Source of the DNA: Rhodoluna sp.
Lineage (GTDB): Bacteria > Actinomycetota > Actinomycetes > Actinomycetales > Microbacteriaceae
Direction: 5' to 3'
NCBI GenBank assembly: GCA_023260375.1
Contig: JALQVK010000037.1
Span: 1 to 10,183 of the forward strand
Length of the DNA stretch: 10,183 nt
Shown here: in pieces, positions 2 to 9,945 of the stretch
How the letters are laid out: the number at the start of each line of letters is the position of its first letter
How positions within the stretch are numbered: position 1 is the stretch's first letter
Translations under genes and position numbers: made by a program
The notes under the pieces: generated by a model
Databases searched by the model: none
Seen by the model: only the letters and a program-made list of their open reading frames with translations
Told to the model about the DNA's origin: nothing

Positions 2-223
2 TACTTGAGTGTTTGGAAAGCCGGCGCATTTTGGGCGATGTTCGCAATCACTGCAATCGGAGGTTGGCTCATACACTTTGCTGGTGGCAATCTGTTGCAC
101 ACAGTCATCTCACTAGCAATCTGCCTAATGCTGATCGCGGTAAGGCAGAAGACAGATCAGGTCCGTGCACTTGTGGCGCTTGGTTTCATTTTGCAGAGCG
201 TGGTGATTTTGATTTGGGGATAA
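2..223 (+). CDS. Small membrane protein, C-terminal part (5' end not resolved)
   Basis: This open frame enters from the window edge and ends with TAA at 221-223. A TTG at position 5 could be its start, but the frame stays open to position 2, so the gene may begin outside the window. The visible 73 residues hold two or three hydrophobic segments, roughly WAMFAITAIGGWLIHF, LLHTVISLAICLMLIAV and ALVALGFILQSVVILIW, separated by the charged stretch RQKTDQVR. The GG-LIH-AGG-LLH spacing faintly recalls the small lmo0937/DUF5670 membrane proteins, but this is too short to rely on. Its last 10 bases overlap the proposed start of the phosphotransferase gene, so it is probably co-transcribed and translationally coupled with the lipid-type operon. 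Function unknown. Confidence 0.55.
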   Translation, partial: YLSVWKAGAFWAMFAITAIGGWLIHFAGGNLLHTVISLAICLMLIAVRQKTDQVRALVALGFILQSVVILIWG

Positions 224-2637
224 AGCTTGGAGCTAAAGCGGAAAACCTCCTCCGCCTCAAAAATGAATTCGGATTCAAAGTGCCAGAATTCGAGGCTGTG
301 CCATTCTCGGAACTAATCGAAAACTTCGACGATTTTGGGATAAAACTTGAAACCACCATCGACAAGTTTTTGTCAGGAGAATCCGACCTTAGACAAACTG
401 AGTCTAAAGTTGCCAAGATACTTGGCACTTTGGCAGTCGATCAGAAGGCCTTGCTAGCTAATTTTGAGAAACTGAATCGCCATGGTTGGAAGAAAGTCAG
501 CTTTAGAACTTCTGCGGCACTGGAGGATGGTCTAGAGCACTCGTTTGCCGGCCAATACGAGTCTTACCTCGACCAAGACTTCACAATCGAAAATTTCGAA
601 TCACATATTCTCAAGACTTTTGAAAGCTTGGTTGCTCCAAAGGTTTTGAACTACGCCAAACAAAAAGGTTTTCATAATTTTGTTATTGCTGGTTCCGTAA
701 TCGTCCAAGAAATGTTCTTTGGAAAAGCTTCTGGAGTCCTGTTTACCGAAAACGGTTCAGCCAAAATCCAGATCGCCTATAGCCAGTCTTGGCGAAACAC
801 CGTGGTCGAGGGCGAAGACGCCAAAGAACTGCTTATCGAGCGCAACAAAATTGCGAGTTCCGGGCTTGACTGGCAATTTATTGAGCTTTGCAAAAAGTCT
901 CTGGAACTTGAATACGCGTTGGAGACCCCGGTTGATGTTGAGTGGGCTTTCGACAATAAGGAACTGGTCTTTCTTCAGTTCCGACCGATTACTCAAAGGG
1001 TTTTAGAGCACACTTTTGAATGGGATAGCACCAATATCTCTGAAAACTACCCTGGCCTTACCCTTCCACTCACCTACTCGCTAATTCGCCAGTTTTATGC
1101 CGGTGTTTATCTGGCTTTCTTCAAAAAACTTGGAGCTACAACCACCGACATCGAAGACAAACGACCAATTGCCGACAACATGCTCGGCTACCTGAATGGA
1201 CGCGTCTACTACCGAATTTCAAATTGGTATCAGGCGGTCAAATTGATTCCTGGAAGATTCAATCAGGAATTCTTCGAGGGAATGCTGAACCCGGTGAAGA
1301 AACGTGGCAAAGCCGAACGTGCCCAACTGGATCTAAAGTCAACGTTTGCACTCATCAGATTTCTCAAGCTCCTGCTGGGCTCGGAGCGAGCTAGTCGTCG
1401 ATTCAGCAATTTGATTGCGAAGAAAATAGCGTTCTATGACGCCATCGACTTTAGTTTCATCAACGCTTCAGCAATCTTGGAATCCAGCAAGCGAGCGCGG
1501 GCAGAGATACTCAACGACTGGGCCACAACGATTCTCAACGACATTCGCCTAATGGTCTTCCATGGCCTAATGCAGCGTTTTTACCTAAAGAATGAGAATC
1601 CAAACGACTACCTAACAATGATTCAAGGATTGACCGACAAAGCCTCGATTCGTCCGCTCGAAGCACTATCTGAACTTGGACAAGTGATTTCTAAGGCCAT
1701 GGAAATTGAGGGAGTTGATTCACCAATGAAACTGCAGGGAACTGCTCAGTGGCTCAAGGTGAAGTCTGAAGCATCAACGTACATCTCCAAGTTTGGCGCC
1801 AGAACACCTGGCGAACTGAAACTCGAAAATATTCGCATTTCAGATGAGCTCGAGACCATTCTTACCATGGCCCTGAAAGCTGCCGAATCTGGCATCAGTT
1901 CACTTCCAGCGATCGAGAAACGTGTCGAGATTTGGCCTGACGGGCTTCCAAGAGTTTTGCGACCTCTGATTCGCTCTGTTGCAAAGAACACCCGCCAAGC
2001 CATCGACTGGAGAGAAAGATTCAGATTCAATCGAGCCCAAACGTTCAACCTTTCAAGAAAAGCCTTCGACGCGATTGGTCAGATTCTGGAAATCGAAGGA
2101 ATCATCGATAATCGGCGCGACATTTATTGGTTGACCGACAACGAGGTGGACGAATTGGTGAATGCACACTCCCCAGTTTTGTCTGGCAAAGAAATCGTTT
2201 CACTTCGTAAATCCAAGTTTGCAAACTATGAAAACCTCAACCAAGGGTTGGCAGTTTCTGGTTCCGGCAAAATCGCTGCCGTGAACCTAACCAACACCGA
2301 ATCCATCGAGGATGGAAAAGGGCTTGGCGGAAACGGAGTGGCTCCCGGACTGGTAACCGCGGAGGCAATTGTGGTTCGTGAATTCGACCCAAATCTCGAC
2401 GTGCGAGGCAAAGTCTTGGTGGTCCACTACATCGATCCAGGCTGGACGTTGCTTTTCACTCAAGCCGCAGCGATTGTCGCCGAACGCGGAAACGCACTCT
2501 CCCACGCCGCCATTATCGCCAGAGAGATTGGAATACCAGCAGTAGTTGCTGCCATCAGAGCCACAACTGAAATATCCACTGGTCAAATCATTACCGTCAA
2601 CGGAACCACAGGAACGATTACGCATGAATCGCTATAA
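214..2637 (+). CDS. PEP synthase / rifampicin phosphotransferase-like enzyme (ATP-grasp plus C-terminal phospho-His domain)
   Basis: About 807 residues from TTG 214. The frame is open further upstream, but homology-like sequence begins only at GIKLGAKAENLLRLK, the usual N-terminus of PEP/pyruvate-binding ATP-grasp domains (GxKxxNL). The ATP-grasp domain covers about residues 1-260. It has the nucleotide-binding motif FRTSAALEDG (Arg98, Glu104), SFAGQ at 110-114, and the closing motif FLQFRPIT around Gln255-Arg257. The C-terminal swivelling domain (about 725-807) carries NALSHAAIIAREIGIPAVV with the phosphorylatable His at residue 764. About 450 residues lie between, beginning with the family-typical NISENYPGLTLPLTYS. 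There is no PEP-binding TIM barrel. This domain order matches rifampicin phosphotransferase rather than true PEP synthase. In that family ATP phosphorylates the His, which then passes phosphate to a substrate bound by the middle domain. The acceptor here is unknown; the lipid-gene neighbours suggest a lipid or isoprenoid alcohol or a head-group precursor. Confidence 0.88.
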   Translation: MGIKLGAKAENLLRLKNEFGFKVPEFEAVPFSELIENFDDFGIKLETTIDKFLSGESDLRQTESKVAKILGTLAVDQKALLANFEKLNRHGWKKVSFRTSAALEDGLEHSFAGQYESYLDQDFTIENFESHILKTFESLVAPKVLNYAKQKGFHNFVIAGSVIVQEMFFGKASGVLFTENGSAKIQIAYSQSWRNTVVEGEDAKELLIERNKIASSGLDWQFIELCKKSLELEYALETPVDVEWAFDNKELVFLQFRPITQRVLEHTFEWDSTNISENYPGLTLPLTYSLIRQFYAGVYLAFFKKLGATTTDIEDKRPIADNMLGYLNGRVYYRISNWYQAVKLIPGRFNQEFFEGMLNPVKKRGKAERAQLDLKSTFALIRFLKLLLGSERASRRFSNLIAKKIAFYDAIDFSFINASAILESSKRARAEILNDWATTILNDIRLMVFHGLMQRFYLKNENPNDYLTMIQGLTDKASIRPLEALSELGQVISKAMEIEGVDSPMKLQGTAQWLKVKSEASTYISKFGARTPGELKLENIRISDELETILTMALKAAESGISSLPAIEKRVEIWPDGLPRVLRPLIRSVAKNTRQAIDWRERFRFNRAQTFNLSRKAFDAIGQILEIEGIIDNRRDIYWLTDNEVDELVNAHSPVLSGKEIVSLRKSKFANYENLNQGLAVSGSGKIAAVNLTNTESIEDGKGLGGNGVAPGLVTAEAIVVREFDPNLDVRGKVLVVHYIDPGWTLLFTQAAAIVAERGNALSHAAIIAREIGIPAVVAAIRATTEISTGQIITVNGTTGTITHESL

Positions 2638-3241
2638 GAAAATCGCCCAAACTATTGGCTGGGCTGGGCTAGCCAGTTTCTTGAGCCTAGGTGCAGCCTG
2701 GACTGCCCTAGCGTTTGTGTTGTCACATAATTTCAAACTCGCGGTCGTTTTTTCTTGTGCAGCTTTTTTATTGGACGCCACCGACGGTTTCATCGCCAGA
2801 AAATTGGGGACAGCTTCGGAATTCGGCCGCCAGCTCGATTCCATGATTGATTCGATCAACTATTCACTTTTTGCTGCAGTTTTCATTCTTCAAGTACTTC
2901 TACCAGGCACTCTCGGGGCAATTGCTGGTTACACAGTTCTCGCCTTCGGCATTTTGCGCCTGGTTCTTTTTAACATCAACGGATTTCACTCCGAAGGTGA
3001 TACCAACTACTACACAGGCGTGGTCACTCCGCATTTGAGTCTTGCCGGACTGATTCTTTATTCGATTGGCAAGTTCACCGATTGGCTGAGTTGGGCAGGC
3101 AGTGACGTTTTGATTTTTACCATCTTGATGCTGATGGCCGTTGGGCAAATCTCCACCCTAAAGGTTCGCAAAACCGGCGCTCTTGCCTTCTGGATTCCTG
3201 CGACGGTGATCATTGGGGTGTGTGGTTACATTTGGCTGTAA
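2624..3241 (+). CDS. CDP-alcohol phosphatidyltransferase family membrane enzyme (PssA-like)
   Basis: 205 residues from ATG 2624, preceded by AGGAA at 2610-2614. The start lies 14 bp inside the phosphotransferase gene, which indicates translational coupling. The full family signature DGx2ARx8Gx3Dx3D is present: Asp54-Gly55, Ala58-Arg59, Gly68, Asp72, Asp76, with Asp51 before it as in the D-x-x-D-G form. These acidic residues bind the catalytic divalent metals and the CDP moiety. About six hydrophobic segments make it an integral membrane protein, as usual for this roughly 200-residue family. The family transfers a phospho-lipid from a CDP-lipid to a small alcohol with release of CMP. The later stretch LRLVLFNINGF followed by YYTGVVTP recalls bacterial phosphatidylserine synthases, but the acceptor could be serine, inositol, glycerol or something else. 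A CDP-lipid-forming homologue and a lipid-kinase homologue lie nearby, so it may use a dedicated lipid rather than ordinary CDP-diacylglycerol. Confidence 0.87.
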   Translation: MNRYKKIAQTIGWAGLASFLSLGAAWTALAFVLSHNFKLAVVFSCAAFLLDATDGFIARKLGTASEFGRQLDSMIDSINYSLFAAVFILQVLLPGTLGAIAGYTVLAFGILRLVLFNINGFHSEGDTNYYTGVVTPHLSLAGLILYSIGKFTDWLSWAGSDVLIFTILMLMAVGQISTLKVRKTGALAFWIPATVIIGVCGYIWL

Positions 3242-3243
3242 CC

Positions 3244-3750
3244 GTGACCTCAAAGCTCAGTCCCGAATCTTCAGATCAAATCATCGAAGAAATCTTTTCA
3301 ATCACTTCTGCAAAGGCGAAAGAACTAACCCCAAGGAGTATCGAAACTCTTCGTGAGCTTGTTGCAGAAAACAGGCTGATCACCGCATTTGATGTTGATC
3401 GTTTGATTGGCTGGGCAGTGGTGGAGCGACTGACCAAGAACGTAAGTGAACTTGGCATGGCGTATGTGAAGCCAGAGTTCAGACGCGCCGGCGTCCTTCA
3501 CAAAATGCTCGATGAAGTTTCCAGGCGACCAGAGCTTTTGATTATCGCTTCCTACTCCAACGAACTTATTGAGTACGGCATTAAAAACTGGGGAGCCAAA
3601 AGGGTAAACCTTTGGCAAGTTGCCTTAGTGAGTCGCGGACGCTTCATCACCAAACGTCTAAATGCAACAACCAGGACGACCGTCAACCAACATCTTTCAG
3701 AACGCAAACCATTGTTCGTAATCACGGATCGGAGAAAACGAAATGGATAG
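3244..3750 (+). CDS. GNAT-family N-acetyltransferase
   Basis: 168 residues if GTG 3244 is used. GTG 3220 and TTG 3232 are in-frame alternatives that overlap the previous gene. A GGTGAT at 3205-3210, complementary to the 16S 3' end, would favour 3220, so the start is uncertain. The central part shows GNAT motif A: ELGMAYVKPEFRRAGVLHKMLDEV-like sequence at about 69-92, a beta strand leading to the acetyl-CoA pyrophosphate loop RRAGVL (80-85) and then a helix. The canonical Q/RxxGxG/A loop ends in Leu here, a mild deviation. After it come LLIIASYSNELIEYGIKNWG-like residues, matching the typical beta5/alpha4 of the fold. It is a soluble cytoplasmic protein with a basic C-terminus. It sits between two lipid enzymes, and its last 8 bases overlap the next gene. 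It could acetylate a head-group amine or a protein partner; nothing in the sequence decides the substrate. Confidence 0.78.
   Translation: MTSKLSPESSDQIIEEIFSITSAKAKELTPRSIETLRELVAENRLITAFDVDRLIGWAVVERLTKNVSELGMAYVKPEFRRAGVLHKMLDEVSRRPELLIIASYSNELIEYGIKNWGAKRVNLWQVALVSRGRFITKRLNATTRTTVNQHLSERKPLFVITDRRKRNG
3731..3735 (+). promoter_or_regulatory. Ribosome binding site inside the GNAT gene, for the lipid-kinase gene
   Basis: GGAGA lies 7 bases before ATG 3743 and within the GNAT coding sequence. It gives the kinase its own initiation site although the two reading frames overlap (ATGGATAG: ATG of the kinase, TAG of the GNAT). Confidence 0.6.
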
Positions 3751-4369
3751 TTTCCTTGGCACTCTGGCACTTGCCACGATACTTTCAACTTTTTACATCT
3801 CAGGTGTGGTTGGCCTCGAAGTCGCCAGAAGGAAATTTGGATACTCCCCAGAGATAACGCGTCGAATCGTCCATGTGTTTTCAGGACTTTCAACGCTGCT
3901 CGATTATTTATTGCTTCCAGGGATCTGGTTTGTGGTGCTCATTACCACGTCGCTCATCGGAATTGCCGCATCACAAAAATTTGGTTGGTTGACTTCGGTT
4001 CATTCGGTGAAGCGCCATACTTTCGGTGAAGTTTTCCTTCCGATTGGAACCTTGACCACTTACTGGGTAAGCCTTGATACAAACGGCCTTAGCGATTGGC
4101 GCTACTTCATCCCGGCTCTGCTCATCATGACCTTCGCCGATGCAGCTTCTGGCATTACCAGCGACTTGTTAAAACTTCAAAGAAAGTCTTGGCGAGGATC
4201 GTTGGTTTTTGCCGCAGTTACTTTGGCAATTTTGATTTCTTTTGGCACCGAACTAGTTCAGGCAGTTCTCTTCTCACTTGCCATAACCATCGTTGAGCGT
4301 CTTTCAAAACTTGGTTCTGACAACCTAACCGTGCCTTTTTCGGTGGCTTTACTTATTCGCTTCTTTTAG
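3743..4369 (+). CDS. Dolichol kinase / CTP-dependent diacylglycerol or polyprenol kinase-like membrane protein
   Basis: 208 residues with about six or seven membrane segments. Family landmarks appear in order: EITRRIVHVFSG (38-48), matching the RKxxH start of the SEC59/VTE5/yeast-type Dgk1 family; VKRHTFGEVFLPIG (89-102), matching the R-x3-GE-x-lfP motif; IMTFADAASGITSD (128-141), matching the gDa-A motif; KSWRGSLVFAAV (148-159), matching K-S-x-x-G-S; and a C-terminal ERLSKLGSDNLTVPFSVAL, matching E-x5-G-x-DNltvP. Enzymes of this family use CTP to phosphorylate a membrane alcohol such as dolichol, phytol or diacylglycerol. In this operon it would supply the lipid phosphate used by the CarS-like cytidylyltransferase encoded opposite. 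The 3' end overlaps that gene's 3' end by 21 bp. The substrate is not known. Family assignment is firm, the exact reaction less so. Confidence 0.82.
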   Translation: MDSFLGTLALATILSTFYISGVVGLEVARRKFGYSPEITRRIVHVFSGLSTLLDYLLLPGIWFVVLITTSLIGIAASQKFGWLTSVHSVKRHTFGEVFLPIGTLTTYWVSLDTNGLSDWRYFIPALLIMTFADAASGITSDLLKLQRKSWRGSLVFAAVTLAILISFGTELVQAVLFSLAITIVERLSKLGSDNLTVPFSVALLIRFF

Positions 4370-4906
4370 TTTCAAACTCTGCATGAGCAAATCGGTTCCA
4401 GCATGAACCGCGAATGAAAACAAGAAACTGACGAGCAGTAAACCAAGCGGAACTCCGAAGCAAAACAGAACAATTCCGCTTGCGAAAGCTCCATCGACGT
4501 TGTCAAAAAAGGTTTGAAGCTTTCCGCCAGGAGAACCCGCTGGCTTATGAAGCCGCCTCTTGATAAAACTGTTCACCAATTCAGCTCCCGAATAAGCGAT
4601 GGTGGACAGAAGCCCAAGAACTAGAGGATCTGAAAGGAAAACCCGAGCAATCCAAGTCTGGCTCGGGGCTAAAAAATGAAGTACATAGGTAATTCCCGTG
4701 CCGAAAACTACATAAAAAACCGGTGCTCTCCAGTTCTTATTGGGCCCAAATAACCGAACACCGCCCAAACTCAAACCAGCATCAATTGGATGGTTCAAAA
4801 ACTCGAACCAACGCTTTTTTATGCAAAAGATAAAGAAAATCCCACTAAGCAAAATCGGCAGCAACAAACTCAGAGCATTAGCCACTAGAAAAAAGGTTTC
4901 GGTCAT
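4349..4906 (-). CDS. CarS-like CTP:lipid-phosphate cytidylyltransferase (CDP-archaeol synthase family)
   Basis: 185 residues from the ATG whose complement is at 4904-4906, preceded on its own strand by a purine-rich GGGGGAG. Hydrophobic segments lie at about 4-28, 62-80, 93-108 and 140-168. Two conserved blocks resemble the CarS family: PIDAGLSLGGVRLFGPNKNW-R at about 40-60 (family pattern PxDxG-x-GxRlfGdnKTWRG) and GAELVNSFIKRRLHKPAGSPG-like sequence at 107-127 (family GDlvxSFiKRRlg-x-G), followed by DNVDG at 135-139 (family lDqlDf). CarS activates an archaeal ether-lipid phosphate with CTP to a CDP-lipid; bacterial members have largely unknown substrates. In this copy the usual GD of the second block reads GAE and the usual KTWRG reads KNWRA, so catalytic detail may differ. 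The gene converges on the lipid-kinase gene and diverges from the ABC transporter operon. Confidence 0.8.
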   Translation of the reverse strand: MTETFFLVANALSLLLPILLSGIFFIFCIKKRWFEFLNHPIDAGLSLGGVRLFGPNKNWRAPVFYVVFGTGITYVLHFLAPSQTWIARVFLSDPLVLGLLSTIAYSGAELVNSFIKRRLHKPAGSPGGKLQTFFDNVDGAFASGIVLFCFGVPLGLLLVSFLFSFAVHAGTDLLMQSLKLKEANK

Positions 4907-5038
4907 TCACTCCCCCGCTTGAACGCACATACAGGAATATTCTAGAAGCAAGGTCTGAATCTAATCGTTATGGTCAATCGAATAGAAGAAATCCTTTTCT
5001 GTATAAGATGAAGAATGCAATGACAGTGAGGTCTCAAA
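4907..5038. promoter_or_regulatory. Divergent intergenic region between the CarS-like gene and the ABC importer operon
   Basis: These 132 bp must hold promoters for both directions. Toward the importer, TATAAG at 5002-5007 is a possible -10 box, which would place the transcription start near 5014, but no good -35 box is visible at the expected distance. The importer's ribosome site GTGAGG (5026-5031) lies 7 bases before TTG 5039. Toward the CarS-like gene, TAGAAT (complement of 4939-4944) is a candidate -10 box, also without a clear -35. No operator repeat was recognised. Confidence 0.4.
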
Positions 5039-6019
5039 TTGGCGATTTCTATTCGCAACGTAACTAAAAAGTTCGGCGATTTCACCGCCGTTGACGACCT
5101 GAATCTCGAAATAAAATCTGGCGAATTTTTCTCCATGCTCGGACCTTCGGGTTCCGGTAAAACCACTGTTTTGCGCATGATTGCTGGATTCGACTTGCCA
5201 ACCAACGGCGAGATTTACCTCTATGAAGAGAACGTGACAACCAAAGCTCCATTCGACCGCGATGTCAACACTGTTTTCCAGGACTACGCTCTTTTCCCTC
5301 ACCTAAACGTGATAGAAAATGTGGAATACGGCCTCAAGGTTCGGAAAATCTCCAAGACGGAGCGTCGAATCCGCGCTATGGCCGCTCTTAAGAAAGTTCA
5401 TCTGTCTGAGTTCTCTGAACGGAAACCAGCTCAACTATCGGGTGGGCAGCGTCAGCGAGTAGCTCTGGCTCGCGCGATTGTGGTTGAGCCAAAGATTCTT
5501 CTACTCGACGAACCACTTGGCGCGCTAGACCTCAAACTTCGCGAAAAGATGCAGATCGAACTCAAGGAACTGCAGCGCGAACTCGGCATCACTTTCATCT
5601 TCGTCACTCACGACCAAGACGAAGCCTTAACCCTCAGCGACCGGATTGCCATCTTTAACAATGGCAAGATTGAGCAAATCGGCACTCCTCGTGAACTTTA
5701 CGAAAAGCCGGCAACAGAATTCGTGGCACGTTTTGTTGGAACCGCGAACGTCTTTGAGGGTGCTGCCGCCAAAGAACTGTTCGGCACCACAGCGAAGGTA
5801 ATGATCCGCCCAGAGCAGATTCAACTTAGCAACAAGGGCATCGAAGCCAAAGTCCTAGAAACGATCTATCTTGGTTCGACCCTGCGATTCCTGCTAGACC
5901 TAAACGGTCACCAACTCATCGCCGAGGTTTCGGCTAGCGATGATCAGGCACAGACTTACCGGCGCGGAGCGACGGTCAAGGTAAATATGAGCAAGACCGA
6001 CTTGGTCGAGCTTTCTTAA
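5039..6019 (+). CDS. potA: Polyamine-type ABC transporter ATP-binding protein (PotA-like)
   Basis: 326 residues from TTG 5039, chosen because GTGAGG precedes it at 7 bases and the protein begins ISIRNVTKKFGDFTAVDDL as in the family. All ATPase motifs are intact: Walker A GPSGSGKTT (35-43), Q-loop Gln81 in QDYALFPHLNV, signature LSGGQRQRVALARA (133-146), Walker B ILLLDEPLGALD (153-164), and H-loop His191 in FVTHDQDEALTLSDRI. Residues from about 240 to the end form a TOBE-type regulatory domain (MIRPEQIQLS; LETIYLGSTLRFLLDL). This is the CUT1/spermidine-putrescine (MOI) class of importer ATPase. It would work as a dimer on the cytoplasmic face of the two permeases encoded downstream. Only 11 bases separate it from the binding-protein gene. 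The name rests on family and operon context; iron or thiamine importers are less likely. Confidence 0.85.
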   Translation: MAISIRNVTKKFGDFTAVDDLNLEIKSGEFFSMLGPSGSGKTTVLRMIAGFDLPTNGEIYLYEENVTTKAPFDRDVNTVFQDYALFPHLNVIENVEYGLKVRKISKTERRIRAMAALKKVHLSEFSERKPAQLSGGQRQRVALARAIVVEPKILLLDEPLGALDLKLREKMQIELKELQRELGITFIFVTHDQDEALTLSDRIAIFNNGKIEQIGTPRELYEKPATEFVARFVGTANVFEGAAAKELFGTTAKVMIRPEQIQLSNKGIEAKVLETIYLGSTLRFLLDLNGHQLIAEVSASDDQAQTYRRGATVKVNMSKTDLVELS

Positions 6020-6030
6020 AGGAGAAAAAA

Positions 6031-7194
6031 GTGAAGCTAAACAAAGCAAAGGGGCTTGTAGCGGCTGCAATTATTTCGCTAGCCCTTTCAGGCTGTGCAG
6101 CTGGCGCCGACACCACCGGTGGCACCATGTTGGACAAGCTTGGCAAGAACGAAACAACCCTGAGCCTACTCGGCTGGCCTGGCTACGCTGAAGACGGCAC
6201 CAACGACCCAAACACCGACTGGGTAACCCCATTCGAAAAGGAAACTGGTTGCCAGGTGACCTTCAAGTCCTATGGAACCAGTGACGAGGCTCTAAGCCTG
6301 TTCAAGACCGGTGACTATGACGCCATCGCGGCTTCAGGCGACGCAACACTTCGCCTAATTGCAGGTGGCAACGTTCAGCCGCTCAACACCGACCTAATCC
6401 CTAGCTATGCCGGTGTATACAGCTTCCTAAAGGACCGCGACTGGAACAGTGCCAACGGCAAGACGTACGGTGTTCCTCACGGTTACGGCGCCAACCTATT
6501 GATGTACAACACCAAGGTGGTTACCCCAGCTCCAACCTCATGGGAAGTTGTCTTCGATGGTGCAAGTAAGTACAAGGGCAAAGTAACCGCCTACGACTCA
6601 CCTATCTACATCGCCGATGCAGCGCTTTACCTCATGAAGCACAAACCTGAGCTAAATATCACAAACCCTTACGCTCTTGACGCAGATCAGCTCGCTGCAG
6701 CGGTTGACCTACTAAAGGCTCAACGCGCCAACGTTGGCGAATACTGGAGCGACTACCTAAAGTCAATCCAGTCGTTCGAGACCGGCAACTCGGTGGTTGG
6801 AACCACCTGGCAGGTTATCCAGAACAGCATGTCGGCGAAGTCAAACACCGCATCGATCCTTCCAAGCGAAGGTGCCACCGGATGGTCTGACTCTTGGATG
6901 ATTGCGTCAAAGGCTAAGCACGTCAACTGTGCCTACAAGTGGCTTGACTACATCGACAGCCCGAAGGCTAACGCAGCAGCTACCGAGTACTTCGGTGAAG
7001 CGCCGGTTACCAATGACGCTTGCCAGTATGCCTCAAAGGGCTTCTGCGAGACCTACCACGCCGGCGACGAGGCTTACGCAGCTCAGATCTGGTATTGGAC
7101 CACCCCAATCAGCAAGTGTCTAGATGGCCGCACCGATGTAAAGTGCACCGACTATGCTGCTTGGACAAAAGCCTGGCAAGAAATCAAAGGCTAA
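6031..7194 (+). CDS. potD: Polyamine-type ABC transporter substrate-binding lipoprotein (PotD-like)
   Basis: 387 residues from GTG 6031, with a strong AAAGGAG 7 bases upstream. A lipoprotein signal peptide ends in the lipobox ALSGC, giving lipidated Cys22. The mature protein matches the extracellular solute-binding fold of spermidine/putrescine binders: TLSLLGWPGY (43-52), FEKETGCQVTF (68-78), YDAIAASGDATLRLIAGGN-like hinge residues at 96-114, YGVPHGYGANLLMYN (146-160), and the late WMIASKAKH segment (289-297) that precedes the C-terminal lobe. Beyond Cys22 there are six cysteines (74, 300, 331, 339, 363, 372), enough for three disulphides. Lysine codons are overwhelmingly AAG, unlike the more mixed upstream operon, which fits high expression. 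It would capture a cationic amine outside the membrane and deliver it to the two permeases. The ligand is inferred from family only. Confidence 0.83.
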   Translation: MKLNKAKGLVAAAIISLALSGCAAGADTTGGTMLDKLGKNETTLSLLGWPGYAEDGTNDPNTDWVTPFEKETGCQVTFKSYGTSDEALSLFKTGDYDAIAASGDATLRLIAGGNVQPLNTDLIPSYAGVYSFLKDRDWNSANGKTYGVPHGYGANLLMYNTKVVTPAPTSWEVVFDGASKYKGKVTAYDSPIYIADAALYLMKHKPELNITNPYALDADQLAAAVDLLKAQRANVGEYWSDYLKSIQSFETGNSVVGTTWQVIQNSMSAKSNTASILPSEGATGWSDSWMIASKAKHVNCAYKWLDYIDSPKANAAATEYFGEAPVTNDACQYASKGFCETYHAGDEAYAAQIWYWTTPISKCLDGRTDVKCTDYAAWTKAWQEIKG

Positions 7195-7200
7195 ACCTAA

Positions 7201-8109
7201 TTGACCAAGAATTCGGCTGTTGCGGGAGAAGACTTCCCGTCGACTCCCGCACGCCGGATCTCTAGTTACCTCTACCAAAACGCGAAAGTTCGCCTTCGCC
7301 TACTAATCGCAGCGCCTGTCTTCTGGCTCGGTCTCGTCTACATCGCAGCGCTTCTGATGCTGCTGATAACCGCTTTCTGGACCGTCGACGAATTCACCGG
7401 CAACACCAAAGTGGTTTGGAACTTTGAAAACGTGCTCTCGTTGTTCACCGATCCGCTTTATCGCAACGTAACGTTTAGAACCATCGGTATTGCTCTCGCA
7501 GTCACCGTCGTCGACGTGCTGCTCGCTCTTCCAATCGCATTCTTCATGTCCAAGGTTGCCGGGCCTAAACTTCGAAACGTCCTCGCCATCTCAGTGCTCC
7601 TGCCCCTTTGGGCAAGCTACCTGGTAAAGGCTTATGCCTGGCGTTCAGTTCTTTCCAACACCGGTGTTCTCGAGTGGCTCCTAAAGCCACTAGGACTTGA
7701 AACCCCCGGCTATTCACTATTCGGAGCTGCCATCACACTCGGATACATGTGGCTCCCCTACGTAATCCTTCCGATATATGGAGGATTGGAGAAGGTTCCA
7801 AACAACCTTCTTGAAGCATCCAGCGACCTCGGCGCAAAAACCTTTGCAACCATCCGCAAAGTGATTTTCCCAATCATCCTGCCAAGCATCATCGCCGGTT
7901 CAATCTTCGCGTTCTCGCTCACCCTCGGCGACTACATCACCATCAACATCGTTGGCGGACCAAACCAGATGCTCGGAAACCTCATCTACACCAACGTTGG
8001 AACCGCTAACAACCTCCCAATGGCAGCAGCGCTTGCGCTCATCCCAATCGGCATCATGTTCGCCTATCTCGGCGCCGTCAAACGCACTGGAGCTCTGAAC
8101 AACCTCTAA
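7201..8109 (+). CDS. potB: Polyamine-type ABC transporter permease (PotB-like)
   Basis: 302 residues from TTG 7201, only 6 bases after the binding-protein gene; AAAGG at 7186-7190 serves as a ribosome site at 10 bases. A cytoplasmic N-terminal tail of about 34 residues is followed by six predicted membrane segments. The cytoplasmic EAA loop that docks to the ATPase is clear: EASSDLGAKTFATIRKVIFP (205-224). LPLWASYLVKAYAW (134-147) and LGDYITINIVGGPNQMLGN (242-260) are typical of PotB-type permeases of the binding-protein-dependent transport (MetI-like) family. The stop and the next gene's ATG share one base (TAATG), showing translational coupling to the partner permease. Confidence 0.85.
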   Translation: MTKNSAVAGEDFPSTPARRISSYLYQNAKVRLRLLIAAPVFWLGLVYIAALLMLLITAFWTVDEFTGNTKVVWNFENVLSLFTDPLYRNVTFRTIGIALAVTVVDVLLALPIAFFMSKVAGPKLRNVLAISVLLPLWASYLVKAYAWRSVLSNTGVLEWLLKPLGLETPGYSLFGAAITLGYMWLPYVILPIYGGLEKVPNNLLEASSDLGAKTFATIRKVIFPIILPSIIAGSIFAFSLTLGDYITINIVGGPNQMLGNLIYTNVGTANNLPMAAALALIPIGIMFAYLGAVKRTGALNNL

Positions 8110-8900
8110 TGCGCATCAACAGAACCGCCACCATCAGTCTCGGAATCATATCGAGCTTTGTATTGGCTATCGTCTACCTACCACTGTTCATCGTGCTCAT
8201 CAACTCTTTCAACAAATCAATGAACATGGACTGGCCACCACCAGGCTTCACCATCACCTGGTGGGAAAAAGCATTCGGCTCCGGCGGACTAATCGCAGCC
8301 CTCAGCACATCGATTGTCATCGCGCTCTGTGCTTCAGCCATCGCGCTTATTCTGGGAACCCTGCTCGCAATAGCGCTCTCCCGCTATAAGTTCTTCGGCA
8401 AAGAATCCGTTGGCCTCATGGTCATCCTGCCAATTGCCCTGCCAGGCATCGTCACCGGTCTAGCCCTCAACAACGCCTTCAGAACCGTGCTCGGAATGCA
8501 ACTGAGCATGGCCACTGTGATCGTCGCTCACGCAACCTTCTGCATCGTCACCGTCTACAACAACGTGCTCGCCCGTCTCTCCAGAACCAACAAGAACCTC
8601 GAAGACGCATCAGCGGACCTCGGCGCAGGAGTCTTCACTACATTCCGTCTGGTGACCCTTCCCCAAATTGGTTCAGCCCTAATCGCCGGCGGTCTTTTAG
8701 CATTTGCTCTCAGCTTCGACGAAATCATCGTCACCACATTCACCGCTGGTTCAGGAGTTGAAACACTACCGATTTGGATCATGAACAACATGTTCCGACC
8801 AGGCAAAGCCCCTGTGGTGGACGTTGTGGCTGTGACCACAGTAATAATTTCTGTAGTTCCTTTGTATTTCGCAAACCGACTTACTCGCGAAGAAAAATAG
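8109..8900 (+). CDS. potC: Polyamine-type ABC transporter permease (PotC-like)
   Basis: 263 residues from ATG 8109, which shares its A with the preceding stop codon. Six membrane segments begin at about residue 8. Landmarks are YLPLFIVLINSFN (23-35), WWEKAF (51-56), the conserved LILGTLLAIALSRYKF stretch near 80-95, ILPIALPGIVTGLAL (106-120), and the EAA loop EDASADLGAGVFTTFRLVTLP (165-185) followed by FALSFDEIIVTTFTAG (199-214), a hallmark of PotC-type permeases. It pairs with the PotB-like protein to form the channel energised by the upstream ATPase. It is the last gene of the importer operon; the stop is followed after 2 bases by the 3' end of a tRNA gene on the other strand. Confidence 0.85.
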   Translation: MRINRTATISLGIISSFVLAIVYLPLFIVLINSFNKSMNMDWPPPGFTITWWEKAFGSGGLIAALSTSIVIALCASAIALILGTLLAIALSRYKFFGKESVGLMVILPIALPGIVTGLALNNAFRTVLGMQLSMATVIVAHATFCIVTVYNNVLARLSRTNKNLEDASADLGAGVFTTFRLVTLPQIGSALIAGGLLAFALSFDEIIVTTFTAGSGVETLPIWIMNNMFRPGKAPVVDVVAVTTVIISVVPLYFANRLTREEK

Positions 8901-8902
8901 GG

Positions 8903-8975
8903 CGCCCCCGGCAGGAATCGAACCTGCGACCAAGAGATTAGAAGGCTCTTGCTCTATCCACTGAGCTACGAGGGC
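8903..8975 (-). tRNA. tRNA-Arg (anticodon TCT)
   Basis: On the - strand the 73 bases fold as a standard cloverleaf. The acceptor stem is GCCCTCG with CGGGGGC (one T-G pair). The D arm is GCTC/GAGC around AGTGGATA. The anticodon loop is CTTCTAA with anticodon TCT, reading AGA and AGG. The T arm is GCAGG-TTCGATT-CCTGC and the discriminator base is G73. CCA is not encoded (GCCC follows), so the CCA-adding enzyme must supply it. The anticodon stem AGAGC/TCTCT has a C-T mismatch at the closing 31-39 pair. The gene faces the importer operon, with 2 bases between the permease stop and the tRNA 3' end. Confidence 0.93.
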
Positions 8976-9023
8976 GTTTGCCCGAGTCTCCTAGGGCATC
9001 ACTAGTTTAAGGCTCAGATGGGG

Positions 9024-9036
9024 TAACGTGCGACTA
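9024..9036 (+). promoter_or_regulatory. Candidate -10 box for a leaderless transcript
   Basis: TAACGT at 9024-9029 fits the actinobacterial -10 pattern TAnnnT. Exactly six bases separate it from ATG 9036, so transcription would begin at or beside the start codon. No good Shine-Dalgarno sequence is placed before this ATG (GGGG at 9020-9023 is too far), and no clear -35 box is seen. Confidence 0.5.
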
Positions 9037-9473
9037 TGAGGACAACCAAGATTATTGCGAGAGTGTTGCTTGGGCTGGCACTTATGTTCGCTGGAACGAG
9101 CCACCTGACTTTTAGTAGGGAAACTTTTCAAGCCCAAGTTCCAACCTGGTTACCTCTGGATCCAGATTTTGTTGTGGTTGCCTCCGGCGTGGTTGAAATT
9201 GGCTTGGGTTTGTCGCTTTTAGTGCTTCCCAGACTTCAAGCTCAGGTTGGTTTGATCGTCTCGCTCTTTTTCATAGTGATTTTCCCTGGAAATATTTCCC
9301 AGTATCTGACGCATACGGATGCCTTCGGGCTCAATACCGACACCGCAAGGTTCATCAGACTGTTTTTTCAGCCGCTTCTAGTGATTTGGGCCCTATGGTC
9401 AACCGGTGGTTGGAAATTCTTAAGAAAGAACTTTCTTCACTCCCCCAACAAGCCGCATGGAAAAAATTTCTGA
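9036..9473 (+). CDS. DoxX-family four-helix membrane protein
   Basis: 145 residues from ATG 9036. Four membrane segments lie at about 6-24, 46-65, 69-88 and 105-123. The conserved pattern is that of DoxX-like proteins: RVLLGLALMFAGTSHLTF at the first helix, FQAQVPTWLPL before the second, SGVVEIGLGLSLLVLP in it, then FPGNISQY, and a late RLFFQPLLVIWALW. Family members are small integral membrane proteins, some linked to thiol or quinone redox balance, but most have no assigned reaction. The C-terminus is basic and cytoplasmic. It stands alone between the tRNA gene and a lipoprotein gene, and appears to be transcribed from its own, probably leaderless, promoter. Confidence 0.8.
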   Translation: MRTTKIIARVLLGLALMFAGTSHLTFSRETFQAQVPTWLPLDPDFVVVASGVVEIGLGLSLLVLPRLQAQVGLIVSLFFIVIFPGNISQYLTHTDAFGLNTDTARFIRLFFQPLLVIWALWSTGGWKFLRKNFLHSPNKPHGKNF

Positions 9474-9597
9474 ACGCGAAGGCGCAAGTCTTAGGACATT
9501 CAAATAACAATTCAATAAAAACTCATGACGCCCTGATTGGAAGTCGATAGTTTTGCATCAAGTGTTGGCTGAATTTTTTAGACAATTAGGGGGAATC
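9474..9597 (+). other. Intergenic region before the small lipoprotein gene
   Basis: This is an AT-rich 124 bp. It should hold the promoter of the lipoprotein gene and perhaps the end of the DoxX transcript. No hairpin followed by a T run was found, and no paired -35/-10 boxes are convincing. AGGGGG at 9588-9593 is a ribosome site that supports TTG 9598 as the start of the next gene. Confidence 0.4.
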
Positions 9598-9945
9598 TTG
9601 AAGTTAGTAAAGGTCGTATCACTACTTGCTGTAACTATGTCCTTGGTCGGTTGCTCCAGCTCACCAAGTGAGGACCAAATGTATAAAGCAACTCAACTTT
9701 GCCAACAATATGCCCAAATGGACATTGAAAGTGTCCCTGGATTTGGTCCAGGTGGCCACTGGTATGAAACGGTAAGTGCGTGGCCGGGACTTTACCCAGA
9801 TGATTTGGTTGATGGCGCAGGAACTATTAAGGGAACCTTCGAAGCGGCAACTCCGAGCGGCGAAGTCACTTATGGTTCGTACAGTTGCGAAGTCACAAAT
9901 TTCGACCAAGTAAAGTACTCGGGTTTCGACAATAATCGCGAGTAA
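9598..9945 (+). CDS. Small secreted lipoprotein of unknown function
   Basis: 115 residues from TTG 9598, preferred over the upstream in-frame TTG 9553. AGGGGG stands just before it, and it yields a compact lipoprotein signal peptide, MKLVKVVSLLAVTMSLVGC, with lipobox SLVGC and lipidated Cys19. The mature part is about 97 residues, begins SSSPSED, is acidic and glycine-rich, and contains two cysteines, in ATQLCQQ and GSYSCEV, that could form one disulphide. The middle reads PGFGPGGHWYETVSAWPGLYP. I recognise no family. It would be anchored to the outer face of the cytoplasmic membrane. It lies 24 bases upstream of the zinc-ribbon membrane protein gene, so the two may be co-transcribed. Confidence 0.72.
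   Translation: MKLVKVVSLLAVTMSLVGCSSSPSEDQMYKATQLCQQYAQMDIESVPGFGPGGHWYETVSAWPGLYPDDLVDGAGTIKGTFEAATPSGEVTYGSYSCEVTNFDQVKYSGFDNNRE

Follow-up and report, generated by a model that had tools for sequence, protein, structure and literature searches.

Does an actinobacterium keep, beside its housekeeping phospholipid genes, a separate set of genes for a second polar lipid? The question is raised by one contig of a Rhodoluna sp., a genus of planktonic freshwater Microbacteriaceae. The window analysed here is the whole contig of 10,183 bases, taken from a draft assembly of 1.14 Mb (199 contigs, 73% complete). The original prediction had picked out three neighbouring genes, for a lipid kinase, a CarS-like cytidylyltransferase and a CDP-alcohol transferase, and had taken them for a possibly complete head-group pathway serving a second, possibly isoprenoid, lipid pool. 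Our analysis points to a larger unit. Six genes are read here as one cassette for an additional polar lipid outside the housekeeping set, most likely built on an isoprenoid alcohol, and we hold this reading with about as much doubt as confidence.

Composition and conservation of the block

All three predicted open reading frames were found, and the transferase and the CarS-like protein scored above the Pfam cut-offs of PF01066 (51.2 bits, cut-off 22) and PF01864 (34.3 bits, cut-off 22). Their positions had been given correctly, but a GNAT gene that was not listed lies between the transferase and the kinase, and the unit consists of six genes rather than three, with the end of a UbiA-like gene, an upstream dikinase gene and the GNAT gene added. 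The block starts on the plus strand with the C-terminal end of a UbiA-like prenyltransferase (2..223), which is cut by the contig start and was read as a frame translation; it matched the UbiA-like proteins of relatives in tblastn (1e-10) and was aligned with them (A7). It is followed on the same strand by a dikinase resembling rifampin phosphotransferase (RPH) (214..2637), with ATP-grasp, central and swivelling His domains (PPDK_N and PEP-utilizers), a CDP-alcohol phosphatidyltransferase whose closest families are the phosphatidylserine and archaetidylserine synthases (2624..3241), a GNAT-fold protein (3244..3750) and a lipid-kinase-like membrane protein, a candidate member of the CTP-transferase superfamily of the dolichol/phytol-kinase type (3743..4369). 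The gene of the CarS-like CDP-lipid synthase (4349..4906) is on the minus strand, tail to tail with the kinase gene and overlapping it by 21 bases. The TTG start of the dikinase at 214, whose open reading frame is itself open to base 1, and the GTG start of the GNAT protein at 3244, whose frame was listed from 3220, were both set from relatives. Adjacent cassette genes overlap or are separated by a few bases in the window, so the first five look, from sequence only, like one transcription unit. The CarS gene was convergent to the kinase gene on the opposite strand at 16 of 16 loci from two phyla (the window, L028–L041 and L112).

A first check proposed with the original prediction was co-occurrence in relatives, and one block was indeed found across them. 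Among 398 Microbacteriaceae genomes the kinase profile matched 10, nine of them strongly, and the nine strongest CarS matches (E ≤3.3e-61) were in the same nine genomes. The remaining 16 CarS matches in the family had E values of 4.9e-6 or worse; one was a CarS remnant in genome G402, and the other weak ones look like CdsA, judged from frame length. Within the genus, kinase profile matches were obtained in 8 of 67 genomes (1 of 22 among the good-quality ones). The dikinase, transferase, GNAT, kinase and convergent CarS genes showed the same order and orientation in 14 further Microbacteriaceae loci, as far as the contigs reach, and the UbiA-like gene was directly upstream of the dikinase gene in 13 of the 15 family loci, the window included, with L030 and L032 cut by contig ends. 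G809 (locus L112), which belongs to the patescibacterial phylum of the Paceibacterota genome G794, also carries the whole block, with its genes arranged and oriented as in the family. Over all 16 full-type loci, the UbiA-like gene was upstream in 14 (contig ends cut the two others), CarS was kept in every one and the transferase in 15, the missing copy being a contig-end cut. A gene order shared by 16 loci, within the limits of the contigs, is more than chance.

Moreover, the pairwise distances of the kinase, CarS, transferase and dikinase proteins showed correlation coefficients of r = 0.92 to 0.98 across 13 loci (of the 16, L031, L032 and L112 were omitted here and from the trees; the dikinase also omits L030, leaving 12), indicating that the four proteins travel together, with some correlation to be expected from host relatedness alone. 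Two types of neighbourhood surrounded the block, one in genera g1 and g67 and one in genera g37 and g77. The cassettes of two g1 genomes, G016 and G060, clustered with those of genus g67 at 97–99% SH-aLRT in a tree of the concatenated proteins, single-gene trees being less resolved; this hints at a possible transfer between the two genera. In G402 (genus g77; L081), no block lay between the genes that flank it in sisters, and decayed CarS pieces between these conserved flanks point to its loss there. In G046 (genus g1), a 2676-aa open reading frame (L073:9245-17275) occupies the site of the cassette in relatives of the same genus. A plasmid-borne block was rejected, since tblastn with the kinase against 72,556 plasmid records gave no match. 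Patescibacteria are often short of lipid genes. The presence of the block in Microbacteriaceae and in a patescibacterial genome suggests that a lipid-related trait has moved between phyla.

Family assignments and conserved residues

The CarS-like protein was compared with known CDP-lipid synthases. Residues S113, F114, K116 and R117 of the S-F-x-K-R segment and D135 and D138 of the D-x2-D segment were invariant in 21 of 21 rows and aligned to 5guf, a CDP-archaeol synthase and the sole PDB match of the CarS profile at E 0.1 (4.8e-9). CarS and CdsA discriminate between archaeal and bacterial substrates, the lipid groove of CarS is wider, and an archaeal CarS failed to complement an Escherichia coli cdsA mutant, as reported in passages of a review (PMC9385802). 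This separation of substrates and the wider groove favour an isoprenoid lipid for the cassette enzyme. CdsA itself was present in 15 of 15 family cassette genomes, in the window's own genome as a C-terminal piece (70 aa) at a contig end. The CarS-like protein as the only CDP-lipid synthase of its genome was thus rejected. The own genome also has two other CDP-alcohol transferases, PgsA (141.7 bits, cut-off 109.1) and a ClsA-type protein (218.5 bits, just below 240), which fit the phosphatidylglycerol and diphosphatidylglycerol reported for Rhodoluna lacicola in the description excerpted from PMC4156110. A housekeeping CdsA, which the original prediction had proposed looking for, is therefore present together with its own transferases, and neither outcome that it had named as speaking against it, a lack of co-occurrence or CarS as sole CDP-lipid synthase, was found.

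For the CDP-alcohol transferase, D51, D54, G55, A58, R59, G68, D72 and D76 were invariant in 14 of 14 rows, and its PDB matches were the phosphatidylserine synthases 7pow and 7b1k. The top family of the L112 transferase was archaetidylserine synthase (6.3e-23, 81.5 bits), below the cut-off of 240. The GNAT fold of the protein at 3244-3750 was clear.

The kinase was the hardest protein to place. For the window's copy, Pfam returned nothing and NCBIfam nothing meaningful, and neither CTP_transf_1 nor lipid-kinase models matched any of the 26 aligned relatives at E 1. In these 26 rows, R40 and H44 of the clamp R-R/K-x2-H were invariant and R41 nearly so; the clamp residues are those named for a prenol kinase in PMC10849223. 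Two of 10 further relatives matched CTP_transf_1, L114 with 32.1 bits, above the cut-off of 24, and L127 with 15.9, below it. The kinase profile matched CdsA at 71.6%, and three unrelated controls at 0.1, 0.2 and 1.5%. The clamp motif, the L114 score and the CdsA match over controls together led us to a kinase-type assignment. A plain CdsA was rejected, because the CdsA signature, as it appears in two CdsA proteins of the family, is not among the invariant residues. In a Foldseek search with a model of the kinase, no structure reached E 0.001, and the 50 rows of the VIA list include no dolichol kinase, a result that excludes nothing. Along with that of the UbiA-like protein, this putative family call is the weakest of the assignments.

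The window holds only the end of the UbiA-like protein, and the PF01040 scan covered its relatives L028, L009 and L034. Two of these three scored above the cut-off of 34.2 (L028, 37.7; L009, 35.2), with no match for L034. The first Asp motif was kept in the alignment of relatives. At seven loci (L031, L033, L034, L035, L009, L010 and L011), the UbiA-like gene is preceded upstream by a gene for a membrane protein, roughly 216 aa long, to which no family could be assigned.

In the dikinase, only PPDK_N and PEP-utilizers were above cut-off, giving an RPH-type architecture without the C-terminal barrel of PEP synthase, and the best solved relatives were the RPH structures 5fbs, 5hv1 and 5hv2. A PEP synthase was rejected on both grounds. 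K10, R100, E245, Q257, R259 and H766, comprising ATP-grasp residues and the catalytic His, which we take to correspond to RPH positions, were invariant in the 15 rows of alignment A6 (L011, L030, L032 and L112 left out). Because the protein scored 169.7 bits where the rifampin phosphotransferase equivalog has its cut-off at 999, it is called RPH-like only. The L011 dikinase is split, with the central and His domains in one protein (4910-6580) and a stand-alone ATP-grasp protein directly after the kinase (8201-9103).

A candidate pathway and its alternatives

Together, the reactions of a UbiA-type enzyme, an alcohol kinase, CarS and a PssA-like transferase probably form consecutive chemistry for a CDP-activated lipid. 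With the substrates, the step order, the isoprenoid character of the lipid and the roles of the GNAT protein and the dikinase as we infer them, the pathway would run as follows. The UbiA-like enzyme would attach a prenyl group to an acceptor, giving a membrane alcohol, which the kinase would phosphorylate with CTP. The CarS-like enzyme would convert this lipid phosphate to a CDP-lipid with a further CTP, and the CDP-alcohol transferase would replace CMP with serine or a hydroxy compound resembling it, a serine-type head group being the best reading. The GNAT protein may acylate an amino group of the head group or of its precursor. By analogy with its relatives, the dikinase most likely phosphorylates a hydroxyl, and it would transfer the beta-phosphate of ATP to that of a polar acceptor or a precursor.

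The UbiA-like gene in the block strengthens the isoprenoid link. The classical archaeal entry step is missing, since prenylglyceryl-phosphate synthase (PcrB/GGGPS), which the original prediction had suggested looking for, was above cut-off in 0 of 15 cassette genomes; a 19-bit match in G050 stayed below threshold. Eight of these genomes are less than 90% complete, and the seven good-quality ones also have no GGGPS above cut-off. Archaeal lipids based on GGGPS were consequently rejected, leaving a glycerol-1-phosphate backbone unsupported; in that case the phosphate would come in through the kinase reaction. The second lipid pool of the original prediction thus keeps co-occurrence, a separate CdsA and a UbiA-like gene in its favour, with the missing GGGPS against it and the pathway still a proposal. 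Its description as a complete pathway is not supported: GGGPS was not detected above cut-off, the unit is twice as large as the three genes named, and three patescibacterial loci (L009, L010 and L011) have the rest of the block without CarS and transferase.

Besides the result for GGGPS, several observations weigh against the proposed pathway. The patescibacterial loci just named keep the UbiA-like protein, the dikinase and the kinase but neither CarS nor the transferase, indicating that the CDP steps are not the invariant core. They also have a membrane protein, a DUF3419-type gene, presumably BtaA-like, a tandem GNAT and, in two of the three, a radical SAM gene, and two of their three draft genomes showed no CDP-alcohol transferase at all. 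Kinase matches were obtained in 29 of 379 genomes of the patescibacterial phylum, and the neighbourhoods examined, from 17 of these 29, comprised one full block, one variant and 15 kinase relatives without the block, as judged from the genes displayed, two of these 15 lying where a contig ends. The block was not seen in seven neighbourhoods from six other Actinomycetota genomes with kinase-search matches. At the level of single proteins, the CarS-like protein scored far below the CDP-archaeol synthase equivalog PRK04032 (53.7 versus 148 bits), which is why it is called CarS-like, and the transferase was below the equivalogs pssA (63.8 versus 107 bits) and arch_ser_synth, archaetidylserine synthase (58.5 versus 240). 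The second Asp motif of the UbiA-like protein is replaced by E/D-x2-R-K and D-T-Y (nine rows reaching it, by eye), and because just one of the two Asp motifs is kept, we speak of a UbiA-like protein. The kinase profile matched the CarS profile at just 13% (13.1%), and the L112 dikinase lacks the ATP-grasp part. The CoA loop of the GNAT protein, judged by what we take to be its motif, was degenerate in most actinobacterial rows, with the Gly kept in the window's copy. Finally, the substrate of the kinase may be diacylglycerol.

The last point leads to an ordinary route to phosphatidylserine, in which the kinase would recycle diacylglycerol, CarS would be a spare CDP-diacylglycerol synthase and the transferase a PssA. 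CTP-using diacylglycerol kinases exist in the CTP-transferase superfamily, and the transferase is nearest to PssA in NCBIfam and PDB. However, CdsA is already provided in all 15 cassette genomes, the block includes the UbiA-like and dikinase genes wherever the contig reaches, and the failure of archaeal CarS to replace E. coli CdsA (excerpted from PMC9385802) also argues against such a route, which we regard as rather improbable. A greater, though still low, likelihood is given to prenol salvage. Here the kinase, as an enzyme of the phytol/farnesol-kinase type, would phosphorylate scavenged phytol or other prenols, a second phosphorylation would follow and the UbiA-like enzyme would prenylate a small molecule with the resulting prenyl diphosphate, with CarS and the transferase as a side branch. 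The clamp motif common to a characterised prenol kinase is consistent with this, as are the UbiA-like protein, kinase and dikinase held in common with L009–L011, and UbiA-looking genes adjoin kinase relatives in the Actinomycetota loci L054, L057 and L058, recognised by eye only and with no family search. Salvage would nevertheless need neither CarS, kept at 16 of 16 loci, nor the transferase, kept at 15 with a contig-cut exception.

Another candidate is a product that is not a membrane lipid. A prenylated protective or antimicrobial small molecule of the sort proposed for the ebo cluster, made with phosphorylated and CDP-linked intermediates, would suit the sporadic distribution (8 of 67 genus genomes), the variable locus with its other large gene in G046 and the weak similarity of the L028 UbiA-like relative to EboC (4e-6, far below cut-off), and RPH-like dikinases phosphorylate small molecules according to excerpts of PMC12167813. 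Against it, three membrane proteins from families of successive lipid head-group steps stay together, and the scanned cassette proteins of the window matched no other named Ebo families, EboA, EboB, EboD and EboE not having been searched for in the genome. Such a product appears quite improbable. Returning to the isoprenoid polar lipid, a bolder form of that reading would be a new bacterial class of isoprenoid phospholipids alongside the fatty-acyl phospholipids, made from a prenylated alcohol without glycerol-1-phosphate by a CTP kinase and an archaeal-type CarS, with a modified serine-type head group, and carried as a transferable cassette in scattered Actinomycetota and Patescibacteria. We put this forward tentatively and with more doubt than belief.

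Relation to known systems and neighbouring genes

The block was compared with the archaeal glycerophospholipid pathway (GGGPS, DGGGPS of the UbiA superfamily, CarS and archaetidylserine synthase). Both have a UbiA-like enzyme, the CarS family and a transferase near PssA and archaetidylserine synthase, in the cassette in one block, whereas the cassette genomes have no GGGPS above cut-off (0/15), the kinase-like protein, dikinase and GNAT protein are added and the second Asp motif of UbiA is altered. FCB-group bacteria with archaeal lipid genes, as described in parts of PMC7852524, likewise carry a UbiA-superfamily gene, and an archaeal-like lipid has been inferred for them; in those parts GGGPS and DGGGPS are present and CarS undetected, whereas the cassette genomes have CarS-like proteins and GGGPS was undetected. 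Phytol, farnesol and dolichol kinases share the R-R/K-x2-H clamp and a putative distant profile link to the CTP-transferase superfamily (excerpts of PMC10849223), and differ in that the scanned cassette kinases have no Pfam match. The ebo cluster (PMC6282210; PMC5133447; PMC9235831, in excerpts) is also an operon of wide and scattered occurrence that encodes a divergent member of the UbiA superfamily, but no CarS, CDP-alcohol transferase, dikinase or lipid kinase is named in the excerpts of PMC5133447 and PMC9235831.

Rifampin phosphotransferase and the HpeHI dikinases, as far as described in sections of PMC4844700 and PMC12167813, have the same ATP-grasp, central and swivelling His domains, and the two-protein split of HpeHI (PMC12167813) resembles the L011 dikinase. 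The cassette dikinase differs from them in being far below the RPH equivalog and in sitting in a lipid-type block; moreover, in the PEP-synthase motif that precedes the catalytic His (motif from the same sections of PMC12167813), the Thr is replaced. The block is also a natural setting for an RPH-like dikinase beyond antibiotic resistance and aromatic catabolism.

No description of the six-gene cluster was found among the papers listed by the literature searches (open-licence PMC papers), and the block is not described in the examined parts of the lipocone paper PMC12419801; it is a combination of known families without description in the searched papers. An archaeal-type head-group module beside the host's own CdsA would bear on the lipid divide, and mixed membranes could then be studied in natural, not only engineered, bacteria. 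The six-gene reading also gives sharp predictions for lipid extracts and enzyme assays.

The rest of the window holds a DoxX-like membrane protein (9036-9473) and a lipoprotein-like open reading frame (9553-9945) with no family above its cut-off. Between these and the cassette are four genes of an ABC transporter (5039-8900), encoding a PotA-like ATPase, a YdcS-like binding protein and PotB- and PotC-like permeases, and beside them a tRNA-Arg(tct) gene on the minus strand (8900-8976).

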